Part shown: positions 28,174 to 63,213 of the stretch, piece by piece
Position numbering within the stretch: position 1 is the stretch's first letter
How the letters are laid out: every line of letters begins with the position of its first letter
NCBI GenBank assembly: GCA_017630215.1
Contig: JAGBVR010000010.1
Location: 173,100 to 237,099 of the forward strand
Length of the DNA stretch: 64,000 nt
Source: Bacteroidales bacterium
GTDB taxonomy: Bacteria > Bacteroidota > Bacteroidia > Bacteroidales > UBA932
Direction: 5' to 3'
The notes under the pieces: model-generated
The model's input: the letters and a program-made list of their open reading frames with translations, nothing else
What the model was told of the DNA's origin: nothing
Databases searched by the model: none
Made by a program: the position numbers and the translations under genes

Positions 28174-29538
28174 TTATTTTGTAGACCAGGTTCCACCGCC
28201 GTTATCCCAAGTTCCTTCTTTTACAGTATAGAGATTTGTTCCGTCGGTAGGAACAGTGAGGTCTGCTGTCTGATTCCACTTGTTATTCCAATCATTATTA
28301 GCATTACCTGGATTCATGCGACAGAAAATGATGTTGGTATATCCTTCAATATCAGCCTTATCAAACTCATAGATTCCATCTGAATCAGAAGCCGCCACCA
28401 TATCTATCCATTTCTCTGGCTTGCCATCCTGAAATGCATAAACTGCAAAACGAGCATTAGCCTGAGTCCAGTTGCTGTTTGGCTTGAGGTAGATATACTC
28501 TGGCTCCGGTTCCACTGTCGGCTGATCGTACGGGAGTTCATCGAACGGATTGCCCTCGATACCACCATTGTACTCACCATAGAAATCAGGATCGATAGTG
28601 ATCTCGAATGACGCATAGTCAGTCAGTACATTCTCACCGATGATGTTTGTTCTCCAGTTACGGCGTACAGGAACATTAGGAATGCTGATGGTATTGATTT
28701 CACGAGTACCCTGGAGGAATGTGATCTTATATGCATCAAGCTGATCCTTTTCACCGGTAACTGCGTCTGCTACAAGAATATAATTCATCGAAAGATATGA
28801 ATATTCGTGAGCTGTAGGATAGTCTGCCTTATTGTAGACATTGAGCTTCTGCTGCGGAAGAGCAGCCGCTTTGAAGGTGAACTCTTTTCCTTCTGATGCC
28901 ACTCCAGAGAAGAGATCAAATCTTGTCGCGGCATTTGAAAGAGTTACAGAAGTGTTGTCTATAACGACTCCCGCTGCCTTTGCAGCATCGATATCATCCT
29001 GAGTAGTACCGACATTGATCTGTGCAAACGGGCGTGTAAGAGTAATGTTTTCAATACTCATATCAGCCTCAATATGGAGCTTTGCAACAGCGTAAAAAGC
29101 ATCACGTGACTCATCATTCGCAGCAAGAGCATCATAGTTCACTGTAAGATAAGGAGGATACTGAGCTGTGAGAGCGTAGTGGCTCTTACCTTCTGCCTGT
29201 GCCCAGAACACGAATTCATAATCCTGTCCCTTAACAAGTCTTACAGATACCTTGGCATCGAGATCATCCGCACCCTGGAAATCTTCGATTTCAGGCTGAA
29301 GCTGATCCAAAAGAACTCCGTCCTTATAGACATAGAAAAGGAGTTCCTTCTCGTATGTGTCTGCATAACCGATTCCGGTCCCTGCAGGTGCAGCCTTAGT
29401 AGCAATAGCACTTTCTGTGTTGATGGCGAATGTCACTTCGACCTCATCCTGACTGCTTGCAGGAATGTTTTCTCTCTGACAAGCAAATGCCGCCACAAGG
29501 ATCATAATAGTGGCCGCATAGCGGAAAAACTTTTTCAT
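28174..29538 (-). CDS. Fimbrillin-like lipoprotein with C-terminal starch-binding-like module (array gene A)
   Basis: A 454-residue lipoprotein: signal peptide with lipobox cysteine at residue 20 (AFAC-QREN). The shared N-terminal domain (about 25-335) shows VTFAINTESAIATKA, YEFVFWAQ, NDESRDAFYAV, RPFAQINVG, YLSMNYILVAD and RRNWRTNIIG. I believe this matches the Bacteroidales family DUF6562. The last 105 residues (IYLKPNSNWTQANARFAVY to GGGTWSTK, with IIFCRMNPGN) resemble the CBM26/starch-binding modules of surface glycan-binding proteins. Last gene of the run; gene B has the same architecture, with nearly identical 3' DNA. Likely surface exposed; glycan binding is inferred. Confidence 0.82.
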   Translation of the reverse strand: MKKFFRYAATIMILVAAFACQRENIPASSQDEVEVTFAINTESAIATKAAPAGTGIGYADTYEKELLFYVYKDGVLLDQLQPEIEDFQGADDLDAKVSVRLVKGQDYEFVFWAQAEGKSHYALTAQYPPYLTVNYDALAANDESRDAFYAVAKLHIEADMSIENITLTRPFAQINVGTTQDDIDAAKAAGVVIDNTSVTLSNAATRFDLFSGVASEGKEFTFKAAALPQQKLNVYNKADYPTAHEYSYLSMNYILVADAVTGEKDQLDAYKITFLQGTREINTISIPNVPVRRNWRTNIIGENVLTDYASFEITIDPDFYGEYNGGIEGNPFDELPYDQPTVEPEPEYIYLKPNSNWTQANARFAVYAFQDGKPEKWIDMVAASDSDGIYEFDKADIEGYTNIIFCRMNPGNANNDWNNKWNQTADLTVPTDGTNLYTVKEGTWDNGGGTWSTK

Positions 29539-29561
29539 TGTAGTTATGGTTAATTAGTTAT

Positions 29562-29596
29562 TGGCAGCCTCGGGCGCGGTCAGGCGCCCGGGACTG
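29562..29596 (-). repeat. GGTCA-loop hairpin, copy 1
   Basis: CGGGCGC (29571-29577) and GCGCCCG (29584-29590) around loop GGTCAG, in the 66-base gap between array genes B and A. One of ten related hairpins whose stems differ but pair. Confidence 0.65.
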
Positions 29597-29604
29597 AATT
29601 TGTC

Positions 29605-30960
29605 TTATTTTGTAGACCAGGTTCCACCGCCGTTATCCCAAGTTCCTTCCTTGACGGTATACAGGTTTGTACCATCTGTCGGAACTTTAAGGTCAGATGT
29701 CTGATTCCACTTGTTATCCCAGTTGTTATTAGCATTACCAGGATTCATGCGACAGAAGATGATGTTAGGATTACCCTGAAGAGCATCCTTGCTGATTTCA
29801 TAGATTCCATCATCATCAGCATCAGTCATAGGATCCCATCTCTCTGCAACTCCCCATGAATAAACTGCAAAACGAGCATTATCTACCTCCCAATTTGCAT
29901 TAGGCTTGAGATAAAGATTGTTATCTACAGGCTCCGGAGCCACAGTACCATTGTAAGGATACTCCTTCCAGTCGCTACCCTCTGGATCATACTCACCGTC
30001 AAATGCAGGATCGATCACGATGCTGAATGTCGACATATCAGTAAGGATATTCTCGCTGATGATGTTTGTACGATAGTTACGACGTACAGGAACATTGTTG
30101 ATCTGGATAGGATTGTTCACTGGTTGATCGTTACCCTCCTCGTAGAAGTCAACAACGAAAGTAACAAGTCCCTTCTCTGTACCGTCAGCTGAGTTATCAG
30201 CTACGAGGACATAGTTGAGTGAAAGGTACTCATACTCTGTCGCCTGCTCCTGTCCCTTGTATACAGAAAGAGTATTCTCACCTGCAGGGAGGGTATTCAT
30301 AGGAAGAGCTGCAGCTGCAAAAGTAACATCGACATTACCCTCAGTCTTACCGCTGAAGAGGTTAAGAACATTAGCGACACCCTTTACAGTCACCTCTGAC
30401 TTAGTTACAGTCACACCTGCTGTCTGCGCTGCAGTATAATCTAGAGTACCGACATTGATCTGAGCCACAGCACGTCTGAGAGTGATATCCTGATTAAGAT
30501 TGCTGTCAGTTACCTTATAGCCCTCAAGAGTTGCATACCAAGCATCGCGATACTTGTTGTTTGCAACAAGACCACCATAGTTTACAGTCACATTCTTGTT
30601 CTCGAGATCAACTGTGTAGTAGTTTGTACCCTTTGAATCAGCCCAGAACACGAAATCATAAGTCTGTCCCTTTACGAGAGTTACTGTAACTGTAGCCTCG
30701 TTGTCTGTGCCGAAGTCATCTGCAACAGAATAAACAGCTGGTGAGAGAAGCTGGCCATTACGGTAAACACCGAAAGTGAGTTCCTTTTCCCACTCTGGAG
30801 CTTCACCTACAACCGCCTTAGACTGGATAGCCTCATTAGAGATAGTGAAGGTAACTTCTACTGCTTCACCTTTGCCAAGCTCAGGAGATACCTCCTTCTG
30901 GCATGATGCCGCGAATGCCATTGAAAGCAGAGCGGCCGAATAAAAAAGGATCTTTTTCAT
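29605..30960 (-). CDS. Fimbrillin-like lipoprotein with C-terminal starch-binding-like module (array gene B)
   Basis: A 451-residue lipoprotein, lipobox cysteine at 20 (AASC-QKEV). The shared N-terminal domain has VTFTISNEAIQSKA, YDFVFWAD, NKYRDAWYA, RRAVAQINVG (a variant of RPFAQIN), YLSLNYVLVAD and RRNYRTNIIS. The C-terminal module (about 345-451: LYLKPNANWEVDNARFAVY, NIIFCRMNPGN, final TWDNGGGTWSTK) matches gene A at protein level and its end matches at DNA level, showing a recent duplication or conversion. Spacing to gene C is 33 bases, so it is cotranscribed. Predicted cell-surface carbohydrate-binding subunit; ligand not known. Confidence 0.82.
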   Translation of the reverse strand: MKKILFYSAALLSMAFAASCQKEVSPELGKGEAVEVTFTISNEAIQSKAVVGEAPEWEKELTFGVYRNGQLLSPAVYSVADDFGTDNEATVTVTLVKGQTYDFVFWADSKGTNYYTVDLENKNVTVNYGGLVANNKYRDAWYATLEGYKVTDSNLNQDITLRRAVAQINVGTLDYTAAQTAGVTVTKSEVTVKGVANVLNLFSGKTEGNVDVTFAAAALPMNTLPAGENTLSVYKGQEQATEYEYLSLNYVLVADNSADGTEKGLVTFVVDFYEEGNDQPVNNPIQINNVPVRRNYRTNIISENILTDMSTFSIVIDPAFDGEYDPEGSDWKEYPYNGTVAPEPVDNNLYLKPNANWEVDNARFAVYSWGVAERWDPMTDADDDGIYEISKDALQGNPNIIFCRMNPGNANNNWDNKWNQTSDLKVPTDGTNLYTVKEGTWDNGGGTWSTK

Positions 30961-30993: not shown

Positions 30994-31941
30994 TTAGTTC
31001 TGCGGCCAATTCTCGATGTAAGGAGAATCAACATCGTAAATCGGAATGATTTCCACTACGAAATGAGCCGGACCGGTAAAGAATTCACCGATGATGTTTG
31101 TGCGATAGTTTCTCTGATAAGGAACATTCTCCACAGGAATGACGATTTCCGCATTGTTATAGGTGAAGATTCCTGTAACAGAAGGAAGCATACCCTTTGT
31201 CTGAGGTGCGAGAACATAGTTCATAGATACATAGCTGTATGTCTGGTTATCACCATTGATCTCAAGCTTCTCACCGCTTGCTGCAGGAACAGGTGTAGAA
31301 TAGAATGCTGCATTTGTTGAACCTGTAGCTGTTCTGTCAAGAACATTCAGCACATTAGGAAGACCTGAAATCTCTACCTGTGAAAGCATTCTGAGTCCGA
31401 GGTCTGTCACCTCTGAATAATCTTTTGCTCCGAAATTGATCTGAGCGAACGGACGATAAAGATCTACCTTTGTAGGAGTCGATACCACCTTGTAACCCTC
31501 GACGAGCTGATAGAAAGCATCACGATTCTCATCATTGGCCGCTGTACTGTAGCTATCCACAGTGACAGTCTGCGCCTGAGGATCAAATGTATAAGGAGCA
31601 TCTGGTGACTGAGCCCAGAATACGATGTCATATGGATAGTTCTTTACAAGTTTGAGCTCTACAGTCATGGTGAGTGCACCATTTTCGAACTTCAAAGGCT
31701 CGTCATTGTGAAGAAGAAGCCTTCTTTCTGCGTTATTGGCATCATAGACAGCATAATAAAGATCAGTAGCAGTCTTTCCATCTGAATATGCCTTAGTGGC
31801 AATACTTTCAGGAACAGATACAGCAAGAACTGCAACAGCCTCTTCACCCTCAGGGAGAGACACTGCCGGAGTTTCTTTCTGGCAAGATGCAGCTGCGATC
31901 AATCCGGCCACAGCCGCTGCAATCCAAAAAATCTTTTTCAT
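30994..31941 (-). CDS. Short fimbrillin-like lipoprotein, shared domain only (array gene C)
   Basis: A 315-residue lipoprotein, lipobox cysteine at 20 (AASC-QKET). It consists of the shared domain alone: VLAVSVPESIATKAYSDG, YDIVFWAQ, NDENRDAFYQL, YRPFAQINFGAKD, YVSMNYVLAP and YQRNYRTNIIGEFF, with a final strand HFVVEIIPIY. With genes D and E it forms a group of minimal subunits lacking any C-terminal extension, as would suit stalk or filler subunits if the family polymerises. The signal-peptide DNA is nearly identical to that of genes E and H. Confidence 0.82.
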   Translation of the reverse strand: MKKIFWIAAAVAGLIAAASCQKETPAVSLPEGEEAVAVLAVSVPESIATKAYSDGKTATDLYYAVYDANNAERRLLLHNDEPLKFENGALTMTVELKLVKNYPYDIVFWAQSPDAPYTFDPQAQTVTVDSYSTAANDENRDAFYQLVEGYKVVSTPTKVDLYRPFAQINFGAKDYSEVTDLGLRMLSQVEISGLPNVLNVLDRTATGSTNAAFYSTPVPAASGEKLEINGDNQTYSYVSMNYVLAPQTKGMLPSVTGIFTYNNAEIVIPVENVPYQRNYRTNIIGEFFTGPAHFVVEIIPIYDVDSPYIENWPQN

Positions 31942-31969: not shown

Positions 31970-32917
31970 TTACTTAATAGGATTACCGTTCTCATCGATA
32001 TCGTAGTCATAATCATCAAACTTCTCAAGTACTACGACTTTCACCTCTGCGAACTCAGTAAGGAAGTTACCAATGATGTTGGTACGATGATTTCTCTGAT
32101 AAGGCACGTTCTGTACTTCGATGACAACAGGATTTGCCGACTTATCGTGTGTAAATGTAGCACTAACGCTGTTAAGCTTCTTGGCATCAGCAGCAAGGAC
32201 ATAATTCATCGAGTACCAGCCATACTGAACACCCTGAACTGAATAATATGCCGGATCGGTCGGAACTGCAGTGGCCTCAAGTTTTGTCGATGCACTGCCT
32301 TCCACCTCTCCTGTAAGAACGTTCAAAACTGTCGGAAGACCGTCAATTGCAACTGTGGACTTGAGTGACTTATGCACATCCACTTCCTCCACTGACTTAT
32401 AATCTGCAGCAAGGAAATTGATCTGGGCGAAAGGACGTCTGAGTCCTACAGTGCGTGACTCCCCTGCCTTTGAGACCTTTATGATTTCCTGCTTGCAGAA
32501 AGCATCGCGATACTCATCATTAGCGAGGCCTTCATAGTCGACCTCCACCTTGGCCAAAGAAACGAATTCAGTAAGGTCATATGCATTCTGCTCGCCCTCA
32601 GCATCCTCATACTGAGCCCAGAAAACAAAGTTGTAAGGATAATCCTTGACGAGCTGGACATCGAAAGAGGCAGTTTTATCACTAATAATTTCCTTTCCGG
32701 CAAGTCCCTCTACAGGATCATTGTTCTCATCAAATGCAGCCCAATATACACAGTTGACAGTACGGCCGTCAGCAATATCCTTTGTCTGAGCATCTGATGG
32801 AGCCACTACAGAAAGTCTTACTGTAGTTTTACCGGCACCTGTAAGGAAATTGTTTTCTTTCTGGCAAGAAACCATTGCTACAACAGCAGTCAATGTCAAT
32901 AAAAAAAATCTTTTCAT
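31970..32917 (-). CDS. Short fimbrillin-like lipoprotein, shared domain only (array gene D)
   Basis: A 315-residue lipoprotein, lipobox cysteine at 18 (MVSC-QKEN). Shared-domain motifs: VRLSVVAPSDAQTKDIADG, YNFVFWAQ, NDEYRDAFCK, RRPFAQINFLAAD, YGWYSMNYVLAAD and YQRNHRTNIIGNFLTEF, ending in an acidic tail FDDYDYDIDENGNPIK. Closest to gene E: both have the FLAADYK variant and HRTNIIG. Lies 28 bases upstream of gene C; a GGTCA hairpin separates it from E. Function inferred only from family resemblance. Confidence 0.82.
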   Translation of the reverse strand: MKRFFLLTLTAVVAMVSCQKENNFLTGAGKTTVRLSVVAPSDAQTKDIADGRTVNCVYWAAFDENNDPVEGLAGKEIISDKTASFDVQLVKDYPYNFVFWAQYEDAEGEQNAYDLTEFVSLAKVEVDYEGLANDEYRDAFCKQEIIKVSKAGESRTVGLRRPFAQINFLAADYKSVEEVDVHKSLKSTVAIDGLPTVLNVLTGEVEGSASTKLEATAVPTDPAYYSVQGVQYGWYSMNYVLAADAKKLNSVSATFTHDKSANPVVIEVQNVPYQRNHRTNIIGNFLTEFAEVKVVVLEKFDDYDYDIDENGNPIK

Positions 32918-32949
32918 ATAGTTTCAGTTTTTAATTTTCGATATAAGTG

Positions 32950-32985
32950 GCAGCTCCAGGCGCGGTCAGACGCCAGGAGCCGATT
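32950..32985 (-). repeat. GGTCA-loop hairpin, copy 2
   Basis: GCTCCAGGCG (32953-32962) and CGCCAGGAGC (32971-32980), paired except for one A-A mismatch, loop CGGTCAGA. In the 72-base gap between genes E and D. Confidence 0.65.
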
Positions 32986-32989
32986 TCCG

Positions 32990-33955
32990 CTAGATCTGCG
33001 GATAAGTTTCAATATATTCGTCATCGAATCCCTCTACAACGATCAGCTGCACCTTTACTTTTTCAGTAAAGAAATTACCGATGATGTTGGTACGATGATT
33101 TCTCTCATAAGGAACGTTATTTACCTCGATGCTTACACCATCCACCTTCTTATCGTGATAGAAGAGACCTGTTACATCTTTTGTATCCTTATCTGTAGCG
33201 AGAATGTAATTCATTGAATACCAACCATATGTAGTAGCAACACCTGTAGCTGGATCAGTAATGGTATAATACTTATCCTCTGAAGGAATGGCATACTTTG
33301 CGAGATTTACGGTAGTACCGGCAGCATCTTTGTCCACAGTTCCATCAATACCGTTGAGAACAGAAGGAAGGCCTTCCATAAGGATGGTGGAAGTCATATT
33401 TGTATTAAGTCCCACAGCCTCCACATCCTTGTAATCAGCAGCAAGGAAATTGATCTGAGCGAAAGGACGGTAAAGCTGAACTTCCTTCACCTCATTATCA
33501 GAAACGATAGTGATAATCTGGTTAGCATAGAAGGCATCACGATTCTCATCATTGGCATTTCCGCCATAGTTCACAACGACCTTACCATCTTCATTGAATG
33601 TACTGAGGCCGTACGCTGCATTCTGGCCGTATTCATCTCCCACGTGTGCCCAGAAGACAAAGTTATAGTCATAATGCTTTACAAGAGTCACCTCGATCTC
33701 TGCTTTCATTCCATTGATGACAGCTGTTCCAGCGAGACCGGCTATAGGCTTATCGTTATTGTCAAACGCTGCCCAATGGACGATATTTGCCTTCTTTCCA
33801 TCAGAAATGGTTCTTGTCTGAACAGCTGGAGTCTGCACAGAAAGAGTCACATTGGCAGTCTCGCCATTTACACCGCTCTGAGGGGCTTCTTTCTGGCAAG
33901 ATGCAGCCGCGAACAATCCGGCCACAGCCGCTGCAATCCAAAGAATCTTCTTCAT
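32990..33955 (-). CDS. Short fimbrillin-like lipoprotein, shared domain only (array gene E)
   Basis: A 321-residue lipoprotein, lipobox cysteine at 20 (AASC-QKEA). Shared-domain motifs: VTLSVQTPAVQTRTISDG, YNFVFWAH, NDENRDAFYA, YRPFAQINFLAAD, YGWYSMNYILATD and YERNHRTNIIGNFF. It is a paralog of gene D over the full length and has no extension. Gap to gene F is 43 bases, to gene D 72. The first beta strand ending in Thr-Arg is the position where type V pilins are cut, a possible parallel. Confidence 0.82.
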   Translation of the reverse strand: MKKILWIAAAVAGLFAAASCQKEAPQSGVNGETANVTLSVQTPAVQTRTISDGKKANIVHWAAFDNNDKPIAGLAGTAVINGMKAEIEVTLVKHYDYNFVFWAHVGDEYGQNAAYGLSTFNEDGKVVVNYGGNANDENRDAFYANQIITIVSDNEVKEVQLYRPFAQINFLAADYKDVEAVGLNTNMTSTILMEGLPSVLNGIDGTVDKDAAGTTVNLAKYAIPSEDKYYTITDPATGVATTYGWYSMNYILATDKDTKDVTGLFYHDKKVDGVSIEVNNVPYERNHRTNIIGNFFTEKVKVQLIVVEGFDDEYIETYPQI

Positions 33956-33998: not shown

Positions 33999-36149
33999 TT
34001 ACTTCACAGGTGCATCGATCACTGTACCAGCGACAGTGAAAGTAACTACAGCATCCTTATACTCACGGGCAGGATCCACTACACCATAACCTACATTCTG
34101 TGCTCTGGTATAAGCATCCTTGTAGAAATCCTCACGACAGACAGCATCTACTGTAGAATCTGCATCAATGCTTCCAGTAAGAGAAGCCGCGTGGAAACCG
34201 GTTCCGATACCTGCGGCATACTTTCCTCCGATAGCCTTGATTTTCGAATTGACGATAGTGATGTCATTGACAGAGTTTGTCGCATTCGCGGTGCAGTGAG
34301 TATCATAGCCGGAACCGATACCAGCTCCGAACTGTCCTCCGATCGCATTGACTGTAGAATTCTCAATATAGATCTTTACAATCTGCTTGTTATCTGCTGA
34401 AATATCGCCTGCATAACGGCTTCCACCGATTCCTGCAGAAGCGTTTCCTCCAAGAGCCTCGGAAATTGTAGAATTCAGAATGGTGATATCAGTATCCTGC
34501 CAATAGCGGGCACCGATAGCCGCCGCCTTGCTTCCTCCCTCGGCTTTATTGACTGTAGAGCCCTCGATGAAGATCACAGCACCACCGATTGCAGGTGCTC
34601 CCTCCGGCTCACTCTTACCATACTTAGGGTCGTTAAGGCACTCTGCCTGAGGATAACCGCCACGAGCTGAAACAGACTTCACATCCTTTATAGTAACTCT
34701 CGCATTCTCGCCACCGATTCCATATCCACCCTTGCCATATCCTTTGGCTGTCAGATAGTTAAGAGCATCGACATTGATCACACCCTGGCCACCGACTCCG
34801 CTTCCGCCATATGTATCGTCCACGCCAGCACCGCCTACAGCTACAAGCTCATTACCTGTAAGTGTAAGAGTGGCATCGGCAGGGACAGAGATTGCATCAG
34901 CTGCACCGGAAAGTTCTGCTTTACCGACAACGGTCACTTTCACATCTGCATTTTCCACAAGTGTAAGAGCGCTTCCCTCTGCGGCATCGATGACAGTATT
35001 GTCAAGTACAATGTCAATATCACCGCCGACAGTGAAAGGAAGAGCCGCGGTACCTACATTGATGATAGTACCCTCTGCACCCACGAATACCACGCCTTCG
35101 GCAATCTCTGAAGGAAGATTCCAGGTACCTGCAGGAACATAAAGTTCTGTACCTGCGATACGAGCAAGGCTGTCAAGCTTCTTCTGCGTGAACTCCACAC
35201 CCGGATCAATGATATTGAAATCAGGCTTCTCGAACATCTCATCAAGGACAATGCTCATAATGGCAATTTCAGTAAAGAAGTTACCTATGATGTTTGTACG
35301 ATGATTTCTCAGAACAGGAACATTATCCACCTTTACAGTTCTGTCGATATTTCCGCCAGTATACTTGAAATTTGCTGTAATGCTTGAAATCAATGCCGGC
35401 TCAGTACCTTTAGGAGCAAGGACATAGTTCATCGAAACATACTTATATCCGACTTTATTCACTTCAAGAAGACGAGGATCATTCGGAATGGCAGCAAGAG
35501 TGAAATCTGCAGCGGCAGTTTCAGTTCCGACAGACTCTGTAAGAAGATCGAGGGTATTAGGGACCTCTGCACTTACGAGAGAAGACTGCATTCCTGCATC
35601 CACTGATGCCTGGTCATAATAATCTACAACAGACTGATAGTCAGCAGATCCGAAATTGATCTGTGCAAAAGGACGATAAAGAGTCACAGTCTCCTGAAGC
35701 AGTCCGTCTGTTACTTTGAGATTCTGACGTACAGCATAGAAGGCATCACGATAGTCATCATTTGCCACGCCGTCATAGCTGACTGTCATCTTAGCGTTCT
35801 CCCAGTCAAATGCGAATGCACTGCACTGCTGAGCCTGAGCCCAGAACACCACATCATAATTCAGATCCTTGACGAGCTGAAGTCTGATGGTCGCAGTCTT
35901 TCCAGATACAGCCACACCTTCAGATGTGTTGCTGAGGCTCGGAATCATCTTTCCCTGATCAGTGTAGGTCGCATAATAAAGGACCAATGCCTTCTCACCA
36001 TCTGCAATAGCCTTAGTGCCGAGTGCTCCTGGAAGAGCCACCTCGAAGGACACTTCGGATTTTGCTCCGACCTGCTCGATCTGATCTACCTTCTGACAGG
36101 CAGCGGCACAAACCACAGCCGCCAGAATGAAATAGAAAATACGTTTCAT
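33999..36149 (-). CDS. Fimbrillin-like lipoprotein with glycine-rich repeat C-terminus (array gene F)
   Basis: A 716-residue lipoprotein; start at 36149 gives signal MKRIFYFILAAVVCAAAC with lipobox cysteine 18. The shared domain to about 310: VSFEVALPGALGTKAIADG, YDVVFWAQ, NDDYRDAFYAV, YRPFAQINFGSAD, YVSMNYVLAP and LRNHRTNIIGNFFTE. Then IIDPGVEFTQKKLD and a beta-strand region (about 330-470) like pectate-lyase helices. It ends in a Gly-rich part with repeated units such as AIGGA, AGIGGS, AGIGSG and AGIGTG (about 475-670), each tied to a strand like DITILNST or KIYIENST. This is the only array member with that repeat type. Surface adhesin role inferred. Confidence 0.8.
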   Translation of the reverse strand: MKRIFYFILAAVVCAAACQKVDQIEQVGAKSEVSFEVALPGALGTKAIADGEKALVLYYATYTDQGKMIPSLSNTSEGVAVSGKTATIRLQLVKDLNYDVVFWAQAQQCSAFAFDWENAKMTVSYDGVANDDYRDAFYAVRQNLKVTDGLLQETVTLYRPFAQINFGSADYQSVVDYYDQASVDAGMQSSLVSAEVPNTLDLLTESVGTETAAADFTLAAIPNDPRLLEVNKVGYKYVSMNYVLAPKGTEPALISSITANFKYTGGNIDRTVKVDNVPVLRNHRTNIIGNFFTEIAIMSIVLDEMFEKPDFNIIDPGVEFTQKKLDSLARIAGTELYVPAGTWNLPSEIAEGVVFVGAEGTIINVGTAALPFTVGGDIDIVLDNTVIDAAEGSALTLVENADVKVTVVGKAELSGAADAISVPADATLTLTGNELVAVGGAGVDDTYGGSGVGGQGVINVDALNYLTAKGYGKGGYGIGGENARVTIKDVKSVSARGGYPQAECLNDPKYGKSEPEGAPAIGGAVIFIEGSTVNKAEGGSKAAAIGARYWQDTDITILNSTISEALGGNASAGIGGSRYAGDISADNKQIVKIYIENSTVNAIGGQFGAGIGSGYDTHCTANATNSVNDITIVNSKIKAIGGKYAAGIGTGFHAASLTGSIDADSTVDAVCREDFYKDAYTRAQNVGYGVVDPAREYKDAVVTFTVAGTVIDAPVK

Positions 36150-36176
36150 AAAGTTAAATTTGTTTTTGTCTCTTGG

Positions 36177-36233
36177 CAACCCTCAGCCCGGTCAGGGGCT
36201 GGGGGTCGGGGTTATTCCCGGATGAGCGGGAAT
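36177..36233 (-). repeat. GGTCA-loop hairpin, copy 3, with a second hairpin
   Basis: AGCCC (36185-36189) and GGGCT (36196-36200), extended by CCCTC with GGGGG, loop GGTCAG. A second stem follows: ATTCCCG (36214-36220) with CGGGAAT (36227-36233). The compound form recurs at 59598-59665. Lies in the 89-base gap between genes G and F. Confidence 0.65.
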
Positions 36234-48583: not shown

Positions 48584-48588
48584 TTATA

Positions 48589-51711: not shown

Positions 51712-51742
51712 GTCGTTGAAATTAGTTAGTAATAATTGTGTT

Positions 51743-51962: not shown

Positions 51963-52005
51963 CTATATGCATCTTTTTTCGGTTTCAGTATTTCAATGAA
52001 CTTTT

Positions 52006-52045
52006 TTGGCAACCCCAAGCCCGGTCAAGGGCTTGAGGTCGATTA
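52006..52045 (-). repeat. GGTCA-loop hairpin, copy 6
   Basis: AAGCCC (52017-52022) and GGGCTT (52029-52034), extended by CC/GG, loop GGTCAA, 14 bases after the stop of gene K. Confidence 0.6.
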
Positions 52046-52058
52046 TCAACAATCAGGA

Positions 52059-54821: not shown

Positions 54822-55796
54822 CTATTTCTCTGCAAGGATCGACTCCACCTTATCGAGAGTCATATCCAGATAATCTGCTATCTGAGATGCTGGCATACCT
54901 TTGGAGTAGAGGTGGCGAATAATAATCCGACGGCCTTCCTCTCGACCTTCCTCTCGACCCAACTCGCGTCCTTCATCGCGAGCATAATCTATTGTATTTA
55001 AATAATCACTCATATGTTCCAGGGATTGACGATATGCATATAATTCTTCGTCCGTAAAGTTATTAATATTCGCCAAATTAAACAAGCGGTCGAACTCGAT
55101 TTCATCAAATCCTTCAGGTCTTTCAGGTAAATCCGGCATATGACAGAACAGATACATCCACTTTTCATAAGGATCGACCAGATCGCAGACCTCCTTCTTG
55201 AATCGTCCAAGTTCCAGAAAGACATACCGAAGATTATTGGTCAATCTCTCACCGTATGTCTCCTCCCGGATGCTATAGGATGAATAACAACGCTCCTGAG
55301 GCCAGTTATGACAATGCTCCAGCTTGAAATTCAATATCGACACCATTATCACCGGCTTGAGATCATACTCCCATTTGAACTTATGGACAGGGAGTCCCTG
55401 ACGCGACCGCTGAGTCTTCACACGCTCATACCGCTCACGAGCTTTACGGCCCTGTTCCAATATCGGATAACTCGTATAATAAAGCGCCCGCTCACGGAAA
55501 TTCTTCTGACGTGCCTTCTGCATCTCCACGATGAACGTGCTACCATTCCTGCAACGGCAGGACAGGTCAAACACCGATTGTCTATCATCTGCAGTTTCAC
55601 CAAGATGATGAGTCTCAATAAAAGTGACATCTTCGATTTCAACATCTTTCAGCATACGGTTAAGGAAGGCTATCAGCACGTCTTTGTTCTCTTCACTTCC
55701 GAAAATACGCTTGAACATAAAGTCATTCAGAAGGTCAGCATAATTGCCTCGTATTCCTTGCAGGCCCACAGTTTCCTGATCTATAACATTCTCCAT
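54822..55796 (-). CDS. Rpn-family recombination-promoting nuclease / PD-(D/E)XK transposase-like protein
   Basis: A 324-residue protein of the Rpn/transposase_31-type family: a PD-(D/E)XK endonuclease that raises RecA-independent recombination in E. coli. Seen: GNYADLLNDFMFKRIFG (residues 16-32), the catalytic pair FDLSCRC with FIVEMQKA (Asp and Glu-x-Gln, near 80-97), YYTSYPILEQG, and a C-terminal GREEGREEGRR repeat followed by a helix-turn-helix-like KGMPASQIADYLDMTLDKVESILAEK (in two parts). Start 55796 chosen for its purine-rich leader. It lies between lipoprotein genes L and K, same strand. A second copy enters at the window end. Confidence 0.85.
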   Translation of the reverse strand: MENVIDQETVGLQGIRGNYADLLNDFMFKRIFGSEENKDVLIAFLNRMLKDVEIEDVTFIETHHLGETADDRQSVFDLSCRCRNGSTFIVEMQKARQKNFRERALYYTSYPILEQGRKARERYERVKTQRSRQGLPVHKFKWEYDLKPVIMVSILNFKLEHCHNWPQERCYSSYSIREETYGERLTNNLRYVFLELGRFKKEVCDLVDPYEKWMYLFCHMPDLPERPEGFDEIEFDRLFNLANINNFTDEELYAYRQSLEHMSDYLNTIDYARDEGRELGREEGREEGRRIIIRHLYSKGMPASQIADYLDMTLDKVESILAEK

Positions 55797-55939
55797 AACT
55801 CTTTTTTCTGCAAAGTTCCGGAGCATTAGCCGTATACTCAAAAAGAATACGGTTATCTTTCAAAAACAGCCCTACAGGGTATCCAGCGGCATATCCCTGA
55901 GCTAAAATTTGTTCGATTTTTATAAAAAATCCAACAAAT

Positions 55940-55964: not shown

Positions 55965-55998
55965 CTCTTTTCGTTTCCAGTATGTCAAAGAACTTTTA

Positions 55999-56036
55999 TT
56001 GGCAACCCCAAGCCAGGTCAAGGGCTTGAGGTCGGA
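55999..56036 (-). repeat. GGTCA-loop hairpin, copy 8
   Basis: AAGCC (56010-56014) and GGCTT (56023-56027) around AGGTCAAG, just after the stop of gene L. The 30 bases on its low-coordinate side match those beside copy 6. Confidence 0.6.
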
Positions 56037-56046
56037 AATATAAATA

Positions 56047-59000
56047 TTAGAGATTTTCAAAAGTCACGTTTTCAACAGTCACACCTGCAGCCTCATTGAA
56101 AAGATTATCTGAGCCTGTTGTATAAATTGCGGCATGAGCGGAATATGAATTAGGAGCATAAAGTTTCACGTTCTTCACGGTACAATTTTCAAATGCAATT
56201 GCATCGTTATCGTTCGCATTTACAAATGCAACCATTCCAGCAGTACAGAAATCGTGCTGTGTAGCTTTTACCGTAACATTCTCTACATCGCAATTCTTAA
56301 GAGTTGCAGTCACGGTAGAAGATCCCTCATTATATACAGTTCCAATCAGAGGAGCCACTTTGTATGCACCTGTAAATGAAGAATTCTTGACATCAACATT
56401 GTCGAGGAGCACATTCTGATAAGACTGAACAGTAAGAACTGATACATTGATTCCTGTTGACTCAACCTTTGCATTATCAAAAGTAATATCTTTGATCACT
56501 ACATCACCAAAACCGGCAAAGCGAGTAAACATCGCCTGACCATTGATAGTAAGGTTGCTAAGAGTATAGCCGTTTCCATTGATCTCAGCAATCTCAAACT
56601 TTGAATCAGCGTGAGAGTCTACAGGAGTCCAAGTATAGCCAGCAAAGTCAATATCATTCTTAAGGCAAAGAACAGCATCACGACCTGCACTCTGATCTGC
56701 AAACATCTCATTCAGTTTCTTGAGACCAGCTGCAGTAGTTACGTTATATGTCGTACCATTCTTATAAAGGCCGTCTACAACTTTGTCACCATAGTTATCA
56801 CGTGGGAAAACAAGGAGATCATCAGCACCTGTAATAGTATAGGTTCCGGTTGGAGTTACGTAAGCTGCATCATCTGAACCATTTGTGAAGATCACCTGAT
56901 AAAGCTCTGGAGTAGTCAATGTGCACTCACCCGCCAACTCTACGCTATAATTCTTTGTCAACTTACGAACGATAACAGGCTGGATTGCGTTGATTGAAGT
57001 ATTCTCCACCTTAAGGTTAGAAGGATTCTCACCATCTGCACGAATACCATATGCATTAACTGTAAAATCCGAATTCTTGACAACTACTGCAGATGATCCG
57101 ATAGATGCACCGTTCTTTGAATTCTCGAGTGTGACATTTTCAATAACTATTCCGTTACCACCTGTAGTCCACATAAGAGAGTGAAGTCCAGTAGCTGTTG
57201 AATTTTTTGTCACCATCTTGAAACACTGACGATAACGCATAGCTACAACATTCTCTGCACCATTACCTGTAAATGTACAATTGTCAACAGTCACGTTATG
57301 AGCGTATCTTTTACCAATTGTCTTAGCATCATCGCAAGAGATGAAATCAAGAGCAGTAGCATCGGTGTGTTCGAAGTTGATGTTTTTGAATGTAATGGTT
57401 TCAGGTGATTCACCCTGAGTACCACCTTCAAGGTAGAAAGTACCATCAAACTTCTTGTCAAGACCGTTGATAATAACGTCCACACCGACTTTCTGGCGGA
57501 TTGTTACATTTCCATTGATGTCATTAAGGAAATTAATTATCAGAGTCGTATTTTGTGCATTGCTTAAAGCACGCTGAATATCAGCGACATTTGATGCATA
57601 CACTAAAACATTGGAATTTGTAATAATAAGATTTCCTTCGTCACCATAACAACGTCCTACGAGTCCATTGTTCTCAAACAGGTACACATCATTTCCTGAT
57701 GCATCTTTACAATAAAGTGTACCAGAATATTCACAACCTTCGAGTGTAACAGTTCCGTCATAAGATCCTGCAATACCACCGATTCTCATAATCTGATTCT
57801 CAGTAGCATCAGCGGCAGTTTCTACTCTTCTCACATCACCGCTTGAAGAACAATTTGTAAGCACACTACGTGGATTGAGATAACCAGCTATACCACCTAC
57901 GATGCCTGCCTGTGAGTAAACATCAATATTTGAAGTTACATTTGTCATAGCAACAGGACAAAGAGGAGCACCAACAACTCCACCGATAAAGAGATTACCC
58001 TTTACATAGCTATCTTCAGATGCATCTACTGTTACATTATTAAGAGTCAATGAAGCCGCGCTGAAACCGCCGACTACAGCACCGATTCTCTGAGCACCTG
58101 TCTTATCCATTGGACCTTCAACCTTGATATCACCAGTAAGTTTGACATTCTCAATGACTGTAGTGCCATCTGGGTATCCTACGAGTGCACCAAGATGACC
58201 ACCAGCCCAAGAATTGTCACCAACTGAAGCCTTAATACTTGCATTGTGGATGTTAAGGTTTTTGATGACTGCATTATTAGTACAACCGAAAAGGCCAAGA
58301 TAGCAATCTGCCTCAGTGGCATTAACATTAAGGTTACTGATAGTGTGGTTGCCACCGTCGAAAGTACCTTCAAATGTTTCCCAATATCCGATAGGTGTCC
58401 AAAGCGAATTGTTAAGGTCAATATCAGATTCGAGTTTGAATGTCTGTCCCTTGAAAGTATTAGCTTCTGCTCTTGTAAGAGTACCGTTCACTGCTGCTGC
58501 AAGCCAAGCAAGATCAGCAGCCTCATCTACAGTATATGTCTGAGTCTCAGCATTATATGCAGGCGCAGTAATTGATTCACCATTCCACTGATCAACAGTC
58601 TCATCAGGAGTATTGAACTCAGCATCCACAACGATCTGGTAGTCAACCTTGCTTGTAAGGAGGTTACCGATGATGTTTGTACGGTAGTTCTCTTTGAGAG
58701 GAACTGAAGATACTGTGTTGTTTACAGTTCCTTCCATGCCGCCGTTGAGCTTAGTCACGATATCATACTCTACGGTAGCGTTGTCACCAGCAAAGAGGTA
58801 GTTCATACCTGCATATTCATAATTCACACCGTTTACCTCGAGAGTAGAAGGATCAGTAGGAACTGAATTCATAAGGAACTCGATAACCTTAGGCTCAGAT
58901 GCTTCGTTTGTAGCAACATTGAACTTTGTGTTTGCATTAGTAACCTTTACCTTAGAGCTGACAAGTTCCACATCATAAGCTGTAGATGTGTTGAGAGTAC

Positions 59001-59547
59001 CGAGGTTAAGCTGTGCGAATGGACGACGGAGTGTCACCTCAGAACCGGTAGCTGTACCGTCCTTCTTCACGTGTCTGCAGTCGTTGACGTAAGCCACTGC
59101 GTAGAAAGCAGCAAGACGCTCGTCATTAGCCGCATAAGCCTCTGTTGCGGTGCTAGTGTAATGAACCGCTGTAAGCTCCTGAGTATCATAAACACCTGTA
59201 CCCTTAACCTGAGCCCAGAAAAGAACTGTGAACTTCTGGTCGTTCACAAGGTCGAGAGTGATGGAAGCCTTGTTCACGCCATTCTCCTCAGCCATTGTGG
59301 TAGTAGCCTGATAAAGCTTCTGAGCGTTCTGAGTAAGCTCGCCAAGCTCATTGGTAAGCCACACCTCATAAACAAGCTCATTGACATTCAGACCGTCAGC
59401 AATAGCCTTAGTCTGAACATTTGCCGGAGCCTCCACTGTGAAAGTCACAGTGCCGTTTCCTGCAACAGGCTCAAGCTTCTCCTGCTGGCAAGAACCAGCG
59501 AAGATTGCCATAGCGAGCGCCGCTGCGCAATAAAGCAATTTTTTCAT
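56047..59547 (-). CDS. Fimbrillin-like lipoprotein with GLUG and beta-helix modules (array gene L)
   Basis: A 1166-residue lipoprotein, lipobox cysteine 20 (AGSC-QQEK). Shared domain: VTFTVEAPANVQTKAIADG, FTVLFWAQ, NDERLAAFYAV, RRPFAQLNLGT, YEYAGMNYLFAG and LKENYRTNIIGNLLT. A GLUG region (about 345-660) opens with LWTPIGYWETFEGTFDGG and has GHLGALVGYPDG and VGGIAGYLNP. A beta-helix region (about 670-930) has VTIRQKVGVDVIING, RYAHNVTVDNCTFTGN and HSLMWTTGG, shared with G and M. A last GLUG-like part runs to the end. Gene L and M lie between the two Rpn genes. Surface role inferred. Confidence 0.82.
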   Translation of the reverse strand: MKKLLYCAAALAMAIFAGSCQQEKLEPVAGNGTVTFTVEAPANVQTKAIADGLNVNELVYEVWLTNELGELTQNAQKLYQATTTMAEENGVNKASITLDLVNDQKFTVLFWAQVKGTGVYDTQELTAVHYTSTATEAYAANDERLAAFYAVAYVNDCRHVKKDGTATGSEVTLRRPFAQLNLGTLNTSTAYDVELVSSKVKVTNANTKFNVATNEASEPKVIEFLMNSVPTDPSTLEVNGVNYEYAGMNYLFAGDNATVEYDIVTKLNGGMEGTVNNTVSSVPLKENYRTNIIGNLLTSKVDYQIVVDAEFNTPDETVDQWNGESITAPAYNAETQTYTVDEAADLAWLAAAVNGTLTRAEANTFKGQTFKLESDIDLNNSLWTPIGYWETFEGTFDGGNHTISNLNVNATEADCYLGLFGCTNNAVIKNLNIHNASIKASVGDNSWAGGHLGALVGYPDGTTVIENVKLTGDIKVEGPMDKTGAQRIGAVVGGFSAASLTLNNVTVDASEDSYVKGNLFIGGVVGAPLCPVAMTNVTSNIDVYSQAGIVGGIAGYLNPRSVLTNCSSSGDVRRVETAADATENQIMRIGGIAGSYDGTVTLEGCEYSGTLYCKDASGNDVYLFENNGLVGRCYGDEGNLIITNSNVLVYASNVADIQRALSNAQNTTLIINFLNDINGNVTIRQKVGVDVIINGLDKKFDGTFYLEGGTQGESPETITFKNINFEHTDATALDFISCDDAKTIGKRYAHNVTVDNCTFTGNGAENVVAMRYRQCFKMVTKNSTATGLHSLMWTTGGNGIVIENVTLENSKNGASIGSSAVVVKNSDFTVNAYGIRADGENPSNLKVENTSINAIQPVIVRKLTKNYSVELAGECTLTTPELYQVIFTNGSDDAAYVTPTGTYTITGADDLLVFPRDNYGDKVVDGLYKNGTTYNVTTAAGLKKLNEMFADQSAGRDAVLCLKNDIDFAGYTWTPVDSHADSKFEIAEINGNGYTLSNLTINGQAMFTRFAGFGDVVIKDITFDNAKVESTGINVSVLTVQSYQNVLLDNVDVKNSSFTGAYKVAPLIGTVYNEGSSTVTATLKNCDVENVTVKATQHDFCTAGMVAFVNANDNDAIAFENCTVKNVKLYAPNSYSAHAAIYTTGSDNLFNEAAGVTVENVTFENL

Positions 59548-59597
59548 AATGAGATAATTTTGGTTAATAAATAATTATTGGTTTTGTCTTTTAATCT

Positions 59598-59660
59598 TTG
59601 CAACCCTCAGCCCGGTCAGGGGCTGGGGGTCGGGAATTATTCCCAGTTTGACAGGGAATC
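59598..59660 (-). repeat. GGTCA-loop hairpin, copy 9, with a second hairpin
   Basis: AGCCC (59609-59613) and GGGCT (59620-59624), extended by CCTC/GGGG, loop GGTCAG. ATTCCC/GGGAAT follows at about 59638-59657. Nearly the same compound as copy 3. In the 117-base gap between genes M and L. Confidence 0.65.
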
Positions 59661-59664
59661 TGTA

Positions 59665-62600
59665 TTACTCAGCATAGACTGTAAAGCCTTCCTGTGCTTC
59701 CACATTTGCAATGCTGAACTTTCTGCTTGAAGAACCAATTACATTGTATTCTGAGTCATACAATGTGTTACCTGTTGCGGTCACCTTAGCTGTCAAAGCG
59801 GATGTGTATGACGTAAGATTCGCTAATGAGTTATTCATAACGTTTCCTGTGAATACTATCGAGTCATAGGCACTAACATAAACGTGAGCATTTGTGCAGG
59901 TGTTACCTTCGATGACTACAGACTTGAAGTCTCTAGCAGCCTCATTATCACTGATTCCACGTCTCTTCCAATCAGTGAAGGTGCTATTCTTGATTGAAAC
60001 AGTCATATCAATCTTGTTATCAGTATGAGCTGCACCCTGACCGAAGATGATTCCGTAGCGACTATTCGCATTTAGATTACCGATGAAACTAGAGTTATCT
60101 ACAGAAATAGAAGATTTTGCTGATACAGCAGTTGTCAAAGTACTTGGAGTCTCGCTCAAATCGATAGTGAGATTCTTAACTACAGCAGCTTTTTCAAACT
60201 CAAATGCATAATTACCGTTACCATTGGATATCTCGCCGGCAAACTTGATAGTATGACCCATTCCATCAATTGTTACAGGCTTAACAAAGAGACCACCATT
60301 CTTCTTAAAGTCCCATTTTGTAGAAACTGTGATGTCATTTACTACATAGACAGTACCTTCGAACGTATTTGCAGTCTTAAGATCCTCTACGGTACTTACA
60401 GCGAAGTCACGCGGATAAACTGGGAGGTCGTTAGCACCAAAGAACTTGTAAAGACCTGTAGGAGCAGCAAGTGCATTCAGATCATCTGTACCGTTAGTGA
60501 ATACTGCAGCATACTTACCAGTGAAGTTAAGAGTTACATTCTTGCTGAAATCTGCAATATATTCCTTGTCCTGAGAAGTCACCTTACGTACGAAAACAGG
60601 AGTTTCTGCTGTGATGTTTGAGTTCTCAATTACGAGTTCTCCTCGATTGGCATCAGCATCGGTACGTACGCCATATGCCTTTACATTGATTTCAGCACCC
60701 TTAAGAGTAGGGATTGCAGTATTACCAAATGAAATACCGTTCTTACAGTTAGTTATAGTTACATTCTCTACAGTTACATCGTTATCGCAGCTCTGAACCT
60801 GAAGGAGAGAATGCATATTCTCTGCAGAACAGTTCTTTACAGCGAAATGATAAGTCTTCTGAGTGCTGATAGCAGAAACATTCTCATTGAATGTAGGAGT
60901 GTAGAATGTACAGTCCTCAATTGTCACATTGTGTGAATAACGCTCATTCTTACCATTAAGCGAACCAGGAGCTGAAACGAATGTCTTGGCTGTCTCTGTC
61001 TCGAACTTGATGTTCTTGATGGTAAGGGCCTCGGCGCCGTCAGCACGGTTGTCGCCATCGATAGTGATAGTACCATCATACTTCAGACCTTCACCGTCAA
61101 TTACGACATCAATGCCAGGTCTCTGAACAATAGTAACGTCACCTGCAAGGTCCTTATATAATTTGATAGAACAGTTCTTTGCGACATTGTTTGCTGCATA
61201 TTGAAGCTTCTCAGTTGAAGACACATAATAGTCCTTTTTAGAATAGAACATCGTGTTATCAACGTTATCCTTCTCTATGAGAGTTGTACCTGTTCCCAGG
61301 TTGAAAGCCATTGCATTATACGCTTCGAAAGTATTACCTTCTGCGTATACTGAAGATCCCTGATTCTGAAGTACCCAAATACAAGCTCCATAATAGATTT
61401 CATTAAATGCATATAAGCTTGTAAGAGTAGCATTCTTGACAGTCACAGTATTCTTTGCACCGTGTACATTGATAACATTTGCACCTTCATATGTACCGCC
61501 GATAACATTAACCTTATGACCTGTACCATTACCAGATATATTGACCGCATAGGTCCAGTCATTTGTTGTCTCATCGGTAAAATCAACAGTACACTCATTC
61601 AAAGTAAGAGTTACATTCGACAAGCTTCCGTCAATAGATACGCCACGTACATCTGAAGGGTAAACCATAACTGCAGTCGAAACAATGTCAAGATCATTGA
61701 TTGTAACCTCAGTACCTGATGTTGTAAGACGGAAAGCACGGTTTGCTGATGTAGTAAATGTATGACCATTACCATTGATTACCACTGACCTGTCTATCAA
61801 AACAACAGCCTCAGTCTTTAAGTCTGCAGCAATTGTAATAACCTTCACATCAGAAGCAAGAGCTGCGTTAAGAGTAGCAAGATCCTTTACAGCGTCAGCT
61901 GGTACAGGTGCATTACCCTCACCTACTACCTTATCAGCTTCTGAATCGGAAACAACCAATGTTCCGTTATTACTATTTACGAGAACTGCTCCATTATCTG
62001 CGAGGTCAATACCTGAGATAGATACATTAGCACCTTCGTCAATAGTGTTGATAAGATTACCAAGACCAATGATTGTCGCACCACCGATAGTAGTTGCTGA
62101 TCTTGTCACAACTGGAGTCTCACCGTAAATATTGAGAGTAACACCAGAAGCAATAGCAAGAGAGTTGACAGCAAGGCCTGTCATATCATACTCTGCAGCA
62201 GTAAGGTAGAAGTTTCCACCGCCAGCCATAAGGTTATTGATTGAGTAAGCAAGACCATTGGCATTCGAAACCTCGTAGTCGCCATTGATATTCTTAACTA
62301 CACCCTCATTAATAACTTCAACGTGAGCTTCACCTTCTCCACCAAGGAAACCAGGCTGGAGGTCTACTGTGTAAGTAGCGTTTGAAGTAAGGAGGTTACC
62401 TACGATGTTTGTGCGGTAGTTCTTCTTTACTGGAACATTGTTGATGGTGTTGTTCACTGTACCATTGACAGTCTCGATCTCATAATACACAGTAACATTG
62501 CCCTCTGGCACGAGAATGTAGTTCATTGCAACGAGGTCATAGTCCACTGAATTAACAGTTACCGTCTTTTCGAATGGAACTGCATTCTTATCGAATTCCA

Positions 62601-63213
62601 CTGAAGTTTCTCCTGAAACAGCACCGTCAAACACATTATATGTTACTGGAATATCAGAAACTCTTACAAAAGAGTTCAATGGAGTAACATCATAACCAGC
62701 TGTAGTAGTAACGAGCGTAGCAATGTTAAGCTGAGCAAAAGGACGTGTAAGAGTTACTGTCTTACCTGTAGCTGCATCAAAATTCACGAGCTGATCCATT
62801 CCGCAGAATGCGTCGCGGTCATTGTTGTTAGAAGCCGCCTGCTTAACGGTAACCTTTCTAAGATCGGCAAGGTCAAAATAATCTACACCAGTCTTGTTAG
62901 CCCAGAAAAGGATGGTGTAGTCCTGATCGTTGAGGAGGTCGAGAACGACAGTAGTGGTATTGCCTGTCATAGTCTCTTTCTTCTCGAAAAGAAGAGGAGC
63001 TGTAGCAAGTTCATCAGCATCAGCTGTCTTGTACACCTCGTAGTAGAGATCATAGCTTTCATAGCCGTGGGATCCCTTAGTCTGCACAGTCTCAGGAAGC
63101 GAGATCGTGTAAGTCACGCCACCATTGACTACAGGCTCGAGATTCTCTCTCTGGCAAGAGCCGGTGAAGAGAACCGCTGAAAGCGCTGCCGCGCAATAAA
63201 GCAATTTTTTCAT
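59665..63213 (-). CDS. Fimbrillin-like lipoprotein with beta-helix modules (array gene M)
   Basis: A 1182-residue lipoprotein; the start at 63213 gives signal MKKLLYCAAALSAVLFTGSC with lipobox cysteine 20 followed by QREN. The upstream in-frame extension to 63309 covers the leader and is rejected. Shared domain: VTYTISLPETVQTKG, YTILFWAN, NNNDRDAFCG, TRPFAQLNIAT, YDLVAMNYILVP and VKKNYRTNIVGNLLT. Beta-helix regions follow (about 350-700 and 705-960), the second with VTIVQRPGIDVVIDG and RYSHNVTIEDCTFYT, shared with G and L. More strands lead to the end (KFSIANVEAQEGFTVYAE). Own consensus promoter 220 bases upstream. Confidence 0.82.
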   Translation of the reverse strand: MKKLLYCAAALSAVLFTGSCQRENLEPVVNGGVTYTISLPETVQTKGSHGYESYDLYYEVYKTADADELATAPLLFEKKETMTGNTTTVVLDLLNDQDYTILFWANKTGVDYFDLADLRKVTVKQAASNNNDRDAFCGMDQLVNFDAATGKTVTLTRPFAQLNIATLVTTTAGYDVTPLNSFVRVSDIPVTYNVFDGAVSGETSVEFDKNAVPFEKTVTVNSVDYDLVAMNYILVPEGNVTVYYEIETVNGTVNNTINNVPVKKNYRTNIVGNLLTSNATYTVDLQPGFLGGEGEAHVEVINEGVVKNINGDYEVSNANGLAYSINNLMAGGGNFYLTAAEYDMTGLAVNSLAIASGVTLNIYGETPVVTRSATTIGGATIIGLGNLINTIDEGANVSISGIDLADNGAVLVNSNNGTLVVSDSEADKVVGEGNAPVPADAVKDLATLNAALASDVKVITIAADLKTEAVVLIDRSVVINGNGHTFTTSANRAFRLTTSGTEVTINDLDIVSTAVMVYPSDVRGVSIDGSLSNVTLTLNECTVDFTDETTNDWTYAVNISGNGTGHKVNVIGGTYEGANVINVHGAKNTVTVKNATLTSLYAFNEIYYGACIWVLQNQGSSVYAEGNTFEAYNAMAFNLGTGTTLIEKDNVDNTMFYSKKDYYVSSTEKLQYAANNVAKNCSIKLYKDLAGDVTIVQRPGIDVVIDGEGLKYDGTITIDGDNRADGAEALTIKNIKFETETAKTFVSAPGSLNGKNERYSHNVTIEDCTFYTPTFNENVSAISTQKTYHFAVKNCSAENMHSLLQVQSCDNDVTVENVTITNCKNGISFGNTAIPTLKGAEINVKAYGVRTDADANRGELVIENSNITAETPVFVRKVTSQDKEYIADFSKNVTLNFTGKYAAVFTNGTDDLNALAAPTGLYKFFGANDLPVYPRDFAVSTVEDLKTANTFEGTVYVVNDITVSTKWDFKKNGGLFVKPVTIDGMGHTIKFAGEISNGNGNYAFEFEKAAVVKNLTIDLSETPSTLTTAVSAKSSISVDNSSFIGNLNANSRYGIIFGQGAAHTDNKIDMTVSIKNSTFTDWKRRGISDNEAARDFKSVVIEGNTCTNAHVYVSAYDSIVFTGNVMNNSLANLTSYTSALTAKVTATGNTLYDSEYNVIGSSSRKFSIANVEAQEGFTVYAE

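Follow-up and report, generated by a model that had tools for sequence, protein, structure and literature searches.

A minus-strand array of thirteen DUF6562 lipoprotein genes with a type V pilin-like base and exchangeable C-terminal tails in a Bacteroidales bacterium

We analyzed a stretch of 64,000 nucleotides (the window) comprising positions 173100-237099 of contig C7 in the assembly of a Bacteroidales bacterium (G000; 50 contigs, 58% complete). Its minus strand carries, at 28174-63213, an array of thirteen genes, A to M, encoding lipoproteins with a common base domain and variable tails. We observe the shared domain, the fold of the base for gene E, a conserved order of the bases between relatives, and tails that are gained, lost or replaced on these bases; the exchange of C-termini is real. 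The array is best seen as a new, tip-rich and recombining form of a kind already known, the type V pilus, and we put a probability of roughly 0.6 on its products being type V pilus-type subunits, that is, tip or accessory pilins with exchangeable distal modules.

A sequence-only reading that preceded this work had placed thirteen minus-strand paralogues here, with the same start for gene M (probably the ATG at 63213), and had proposed a fimbrillin-like fold and exchangeable C-termini. All of this is borne out. The genes are not strictly consecutive as it had stated, for a PDDEXK_2/Rpn family gene separates K and L. All thirteen reading frames are open. As the window stops at the end of the contig (position 237099 of C7), thirteen is a lower bound and the array may continue. 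Five further members on contig C16 and one on C1 bring the assembly to at least 19.

The base domain and its fold

The thirteen base domains (about 300 residues, 280-310) align end to end as one family, as had been predicted, with pairwise identities of 24-54% and 20 invariant columns. All thirteen match DUF6562 (PF20200, curated cut-off 25 bits). Twelve do so above the cut-off as whole proteins, and M only with its domain alone (56.1 bits). The array members score 34-70 bits, the canonical C16 member 254 bits. M alone also has a weak Mfa2 match (E 0.018, 15.1 bits against a cut-off of 21.2). The ordered motifs of the sequence-only reading hold in part: the Cys-Gln lipobox (by sequence) and FWA are present in 13/13, and the exact T-[K/R]-A in only nine. 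The looser [T/S]-[K/R] is found in every member, 24-29 residues past the lipobox Cys, with T in twelve and S in B.

The predicted structure of the gene E product (pLDDT 82.7), the one member modeled, is a beta-sandwich with the two-domain type V pilin fold, and the [T/S]-[K/R] site falls in the loop after its first strand. The top 27 matches of this model in the PDB are all Bacteroidota proteins, and 25 of them carry a fimbrial or adhesion description, FimA and Mfa1-4 among them. A profile search of the PDB with the base domains gave nothing significant (best E 0.35). Judged by the model, the array belongs structurally with the type V pilins. This result gives DUF6562 a class name; our literature search on the family name found no paper naming it.

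Genes C, E and H share an additional feature at their starts (31941, 33955 and 42087). The first 66 nt are 80-94% identical and the DNA that follows 55-62%, as if the leaders had been homogenized.

The tails

C, D and E end 4-6 residues past the base, in agreement with the earlier description of them as lacking an extension. The other tails measure 130 (A), 127 (B), 402 (F) and 539-1812 residues (G-M). The claim that G-M carry GLUG and beta-helix tails holds for I (Peptidase_M26_N), K (Pectate_lyase_5 and Glug) and, barely, L (Glug), which have Pfam matches above cut-off. G and J have matches below cut-off, as does F, and H and M, like A and B, have no Pfam tail match of this kind. The tails of A and B had been called starch-binding-like, for which we found no support: DUF6562 is the sole Pfam match of both whole proteins, the A tail alone has no NCBIfam match, and its one PDB match is repetitive and unconvincing. 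The K tail gave nothing significant in the PDB (best E 0.2).

Exchange of tails between relatives

Comparison with locus L021 of genome G169 (JAGKTT010000037.1) shows bases 87-93% identical in five genes (A 89, C 91, E 89, F 87 and G 93%) and less so in B (51%), D (66%) and H (61%). B and D differ from their counterparts by a whole tail. The H tail has no BLAST match to the syntenic tail (31% over 144 aa in a local alignment). In gene I, the bases are 99% and the tails 65% identical, and the G266 counterpart (base 61%) is tailless. In gene G, the DNA identity to G169 drops from about 79-98% to 54-64% across the last ~850 nt. Conversely, a 361-column stretch of the F tail is 51% identical to the C-terminus of a G123 protein with a base identity of just 26%.

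We surveyed the tails of 91 members from 14 genomes or records with a domain score of at least 90 bits, which leaves out weaker ones including the canonical members, and compared pairs from different genomes with a base identity of 50% or more across 200 aa (n=43). The tails were homologous over at least 70% of both in four pairs, partly homologous in 15 and aligned over less than 15% in 12; in six pairs a tail had been gained or lost, and in six both were short.

The clearest case is a reciprocal tail swap between the neighboring slots K and L of G032 and G266. The K-slot tail of G032 matches the L-slot tail of G266 (78% over 725 aa; DNA 90% over 1607 nt), and its L-slot tail matches the K-slot tail of G266 (56% over 704 aa; DNA 78% over 1021 nt), while the bases still pair K with K (62%) and L with L (73%). 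The switch point lies about 220-280 residues past the base-domain motif. Tail segments are also shared with G533, a genome from another family of the order: at 85% identity along 217 aa for the J slot of G032 and at 77% along 162 aa for window gene K, on bases 30-32% identical. As the DNA of these segments is only 76% and 72% identical, respectively, the transfer, if that is the cause, was not recent.

The unit of change can hence be read in the sequence: bases stay and tips move. A search of the literature on fimbrillins, tip pilins and recombination (titles and abstract openings) found no such array, although we do not claim its absence from print.

A partner locus on contig C16 and arrays in relatives

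The sequence-only reading had found no partner genes in the window. Indeed, the Pfam scan of the window, which covered the 28 of 44 open reading frames (ORFs) of at least 150 aa, contains no usher or SusC-type gene, and the DUF3575 outer-membrane protein, anchor, stalk and tip set of a standard fim/mfa locus was not found there. The array is nevertheless probably not partnerless, because related arrays open with a DUF3575 gene followed by a short canonical DUF6562 gene, a pair also present on C16. The order there (DUF3575 outer-membrane-type gene, canonical DUF6562, variants) recurs in G032 and G136, with DUF3575 confirmed by Pfam. In G169, G192, G155 and G166, the canonical gene is preceded by one that resembles DUF3575 in place, size and opening sequence, as judged without Pfam.

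The last of the five C16 members ends 784 bases from the left contig end, in an orientation fit to continue C7. The C16 locus is probably the upstream part of the window array, a link we infer because the two are collinear with the arrays of G266 and G032. There was probably one ancestral array, represented here, again probably, by a single array of 18 genes.

The sequence-only reading had been familiar with single members in Bacteroidales but with no array of this size; the neighborhood survey found 15 members on one contig of G266, eight in G032 and seven in G019. The first four G266 members are 28-39% identical to C16-type members or, in one case, to L. From the fifth on, at identities of at least 43%, they match M, M, L, K, M, J, I, G, F and C in order; with the last gene (a weak match to H, 32%) left out, rho is 0.93, a value reached by one of 20000 shuffles. 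Beyond the G266 array lie deoxynucleoside kinase, glutamate dehydrogenase and Omp85-type genes (assigned by sequence and order). The window array has a similar flank (by Pfam), apart from an intervening DcuC gene. The single contig of G032 carries a canonical member (45%), two C16-type members (41% and 51%), L, K, J, a G-type and a C-type member (34%). The four members L to G, all with identities of at least 45%, are equally ordered in 809 of 20000 shuffles.

Among 400 genomes of the genus, 48 have DUF6562 (46 above cut-off). The array-type domain (E up to 1e-10) is present in 20 of 393 genomes and 13 of 206 genera of the order, this genome being counted in both surveys. G533 is built differently. 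Its 17 base-domain matches, fragments included, are spread over many contigs, mostly as single dispersed genes. Several copies resemble one another in their 5' DNA, diverge in their tails and are located close to repeats of 80-130 bp. At least four contigs break off within base-domain genes.

A hairpin after the stop codons

Many array stop codons are followed by a hairpin with an 11-bp stem, a [C/T]TGACC loop and, in nearly all strong copies, a 3' TGCCA (Table 1). The window holds seven such copies and C16 two; one more copy in the window, a weak one, lies before J. All eight window junctions with gaps of at least 64 nt hold a copy (seven by the model, a degenerate one between Rpn and K by eye), and no copy is present in the five gaps of at most 44 nt. 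Among 35 copies with a measured upstream gene, 31 start -4 to 28 nt past a DUF6562 stop, and the other four lie 14-37 nt ahead of a DUF6562 start, after intervening DNA.

The pairing is conserved. In 36 distinct rows from 37 matches, an alignment fitted to the model, pairing is seen in 93.5% of the pair cells, compared to 73.9% in shuffles (0/500), nine of the 11 pairs change on both sides, and the covariation is 0.556 against 0.217. When the 17 first copies were aligned with MAFFT, the figures were 93.0% against 78.1% for pairing and 0.487 against 0.216 for covariation (each 0/500), with 5/11 pairs changing on both sides, a number reached by 244 of 500 shuffles. The strand is not settled, because pair counts (93.5% sense, 89.5% antisense) and predicted energies (lower for antisense in five of the eight window copies) point opposite ways.

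In this genome, model R1 (150 of 258 first-look candidates scored) gave ten matches below E 0.001, all on the two array contigs, the next one being at E 0.9. Model R2 gave 11, ten of them shown, with 15 of 310 candidates scored. Across the genus, 195 of 400 sampled genomes have a match compared to 48 with DUF6562, which means that the element is not dedicated to this family. We read by eye 24 of 29 new loci, leaving out five from known arrays. At 19 of the 24, the hairpin lies -12 to 60 nt past the end of a sense ORF. The gene that comes next mostly looks lipoprotein-like, in several cases fimbrillin- or Sus-like.

Initially, we favored a recombination site or cassette boundary, because GNAT genes in G032 and G169 have a hairpin on either side, and because, upstream of I, the window and G169 become homologous at a point inside the hairpin. 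A general intercistronic role is more likely given its presence in 195 of 400 genomes and beside other lipoprotein-type genes. As for an integron-like cassette array, the folded element is present at some junctions only and also behind genes in other operons, and no integrase is among the Pfam matches of the window proteins scanned. We rejected a REP-like palindrome, as the element is not scattered in this genome despite a weak Y1_Tnp protein on C16, and an intrinsic terminator, as a T-run is absent after the hairpin at the window junctions. The Y1 (IS200-like) transposase-type protein itself (L019:16745-17659) lies upstream of the C16 locus and matches below cut-off (E 0.018).

Rfam has no match up to E 1 for window positions 28000-64000, and the literature on intercistronic hairpins (titles and abstract openings) yielded no such element, whose absence from print we do not claim. 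We read the hairpin as an intercistronic RNA element of surface-lipoprotein operons, and as a separate candidate RNA family.

Layout of the locus

Table 1. Features of the array region (window coordinates)
Feature	Position	Strand	Remarks
Gene A	28174..29538	-	DUF6562/type V pilin-like lipoprotein; 130-aa tail, 67% identity to B tail
Hairpin, B-A junction	29557..29604	-	post-stop; 57.4 bits
Gene B	29605..30960	-	base + 127-aa tail; syntenic L021/G169 gene (base 51%) without such a tail
Gene C	30994..31941	-	base only; best G266 match (base 43%) with 116-aa tail
Gene D	31970..32917	-	base only; syntenic L021/G169 gene (base 66%) with 420-aa tail
Hairpin, E-D junction	32943..32990	-	post-stop; 55.0 bits
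Gene E	32990..33955	-	base only; model pLDDT 82.7, type V pilin fold
Gene F	33999..36149	-	base + 402-aa tail; below-cut-off Pfam tail match
Hairpin, G-F junction	36169..36216	-	post-stop; 61.3 bits
Gene G	36239..39367	-	base + 733-aa tail; below-cut-off Pfam tail match
Gene H	39388..42087	-	base + 589-aa tail
Gene I	42132..48524	-	base + 1812-aa tail; Peptidase_M26_N in tail
Hairpin, J-I junction	48539..48586	-	post-stop; 62.9 bits
Gene J	48589..51711	-	base + 725-aa tail; below-cut-off Pfam tail match
Weak hairpin copy just before J	51737..51784	-	not post-stop; 25.3 bits
Hairpin after K	52002..52049	-	post-stop; 65.9 bits
Gene K	52059..54617	-	base + 539-aa tail; Pectate_lyase_5 and Glug in tail
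PDDEXK_2/Rpn family nuclease-transposase gene	54822..55841	-	inside array, between K and L
Hairpin after L	55995..56042	-	post-stop; 61.9 bits
Gene L	56047..59547	-	base + 846-aa tail; Glug barely above cut-off
Hairpin, M-L junction	59593..59640	-	post-stop; 57.5 bits
Gene M	59665..63213	-	base (DUF6562 56.1 bits; weak Mfa2, E 0.018) + long tail
Second Rpn-type gene, 3' part	63690..64000	-	cut by contig end

Invertible promoters were sought in four intergenic stretches and rejected, as only short imperfect inverted repeats were found: 12 nt in the K-J gap, 18 nt flanking the Rpn gene and 14 nt inside it. The imperfect K-J repeat (51732-51743 and 51908-51919, 164 nt apart) could be due to chance or mark an invertible segment. 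A Bacteroidales-type promoter pattern lies upstream of M at 63431-63462; it is weak, with four matches in the window against 1.1 expected. In G032 and G169, GNAT acetyltransferase genes fill gaps comparable to the Rpn gaps here. The Omp85-domain gene at 22629-24089, on the strand opposite to the array, is taken as probably a neighbor, because the G266 array is also flanked by Omp85 and the same housekeeping genes.

Interpretation and alternatives

If the array encodes type V pilus-type subunits, its workings may be pictured as follows. Each protein would be a lipoprotein with a two-domain pilin base. The fold and published work suggest that the T-K/R loop after the first strand would be cut by a surface clostripain-type protease, opening an acceptor groove. 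The short members C, D and E would form the stalk or act as adaptors; the ten with tails (A, B, F-M) would be alternative tip or accessory subunits with adhesin-like modules. The C16 locus would supply the DUF3575 outer-membrane partner and an anchor-like canonical DUF6562 protein, and tails would be exchanged by homologous recombination between paralogues and with incoming DNA. The cleavage, assembly, adhesion and ligands of the array proteins are thus predicted. The earlier suggestion of a dedicated surface display system is plausible.

Several results weigh against this interpretation. The array domain shows no relation in hhalign to the Mfa_like_1 (PF13149) proteins of the genome (1.3%) or to two Mfa2 (PF08842) proteins (1.0%), so that the kinship rests on fold, DUF6562 and neighborhood, and the fold is that of one modeled member of 13. 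No stalk gene is recognizable by sequence among the window proteins scanned. No contig joins the C16 locus to the C7 array, the last 783 bases of C16 have neither an ORF of at least 100 aa nor an Rpn match, and the C16-type identities in G266 are just 32-39%. The 43 surveyed pairs are not independent of each other, and some compare paralogous instead of equal slots. All four pairs with fully homologous tails come from the two closest genomes, which means that part of the difference elsewhere may be fast divergence. Finally, the proximal tail did not take part in the K/L swap but remained on its base (K-K 63% over 327 aa, L-L 50% over 442 aa); hence, only the distal part moved.

Could the proteins be free-standing surface lipoproteins that never polymerize, with the fimbrillin-fold base as a pedestal and each tail acting alone as an adhesin or glycan-binding module? 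Every member keeps its lipobox, the scanned window proteins lack a recognizable stalk, and ten tailed paralogues exceed the needs of one fiber tip. However, a static pedestal has no need for the [T/S]-[K/R] site after strand 1 that is kept in 13/13, and the DUF3575-headed relatives together with the L023 neighborhood imply a pilus-type partner, so we regard this explanation as unlikely. A store for antigenic variation, in which a small number of genes, or just one, would be expressed while the others donate tails by gene conversion, would account for the reciprocal and cross-family sharing of tails, the similar starts of C, E and H, and the dispersed tailed copies with similar 5' regions in G533. 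It is distinctly improbable, as all thirteen frames are open, the order of the bases is kept between species, which a donor store does not require, and the inverted repeats in the four intergenic stretches searched, such as those in the K-J gap and around Rpn, are short and imperfect. Diversification in place by a diversity-generating retroelement (DGR) is mentioned for Bacteroides tip pilins in an excerpt of a review (PMC12632263). Here the tails differ by replacement, gain or loss of whole segments, not by point changes in a short variable region, and the Pfam matches of the scanned window proteins include no reverse transcriptase family, although no genome-wide search for a reverse transcriptase, and no search for a template repeat, was made; we give a DGR very little credence.

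Returning to type V pilus-type subunits, a bolder version can be offered tentatively. The fixed order of the bases would define slots, distal adhesin modules would be traded between slots and between bacterial families, and the hairpin after many stop codons would act as RNA punctuation, as crossover homology, or both. If true, the cells would display fibers with many interchangeable tips, which suggests a modular way of changing what a cell sticks to. What uncultured Bacteroidales adhere to, and how they alter it, is a largely open field. The array gives a marker for tracking adhesin exchange in communities, and which tip binds which glycan or cell becomes directly testable.

Comparison with known systems

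The closest known systems are the type V pili of Bacteroidota (FimA/Mfa1-5, with stalk, anchor and tip subunits). Shared with them are the two-domain beta fold, the lipobox, the K/R site after the first strand, extra C-terminal domains in some members, and a DUF3575 or Mfa2 neighborhood in related loci. The array differs in having no profile relation to Mfa_like_1/Mfa2, at least 13 paralogues and no stalk identifiable by sequence. The same genome also has an Mfa2 locus on C45 and, on C2 (G000:C2:58000-77900), an array of DUF3575, DUF5119 and Mfa_like_1-type paralogues. As on C16, an outer-membrane-type gene overlaps the next gene by four bases and is followed by pilin-like paralogues, the last of which is long (1211 aa). 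In contrast to the window array, Mfa_like_1 (eight matches) takes the place of DUF6562 and only one member is long-tailed. Allelic and domain exchange between strains is described in the excerpted account of Porphyromonas gingivalis fimA/fimCDE and gingipain adhesin domains, where the divergent region starts inside fimC (PMC5266723). There, too, surface adhesins exchange alleles and domains. The exchange described in that excerpt is allelic and takes place between strains, whereas the present arrays add a swap between neighboring slots and tail segments common to different bacterial families.

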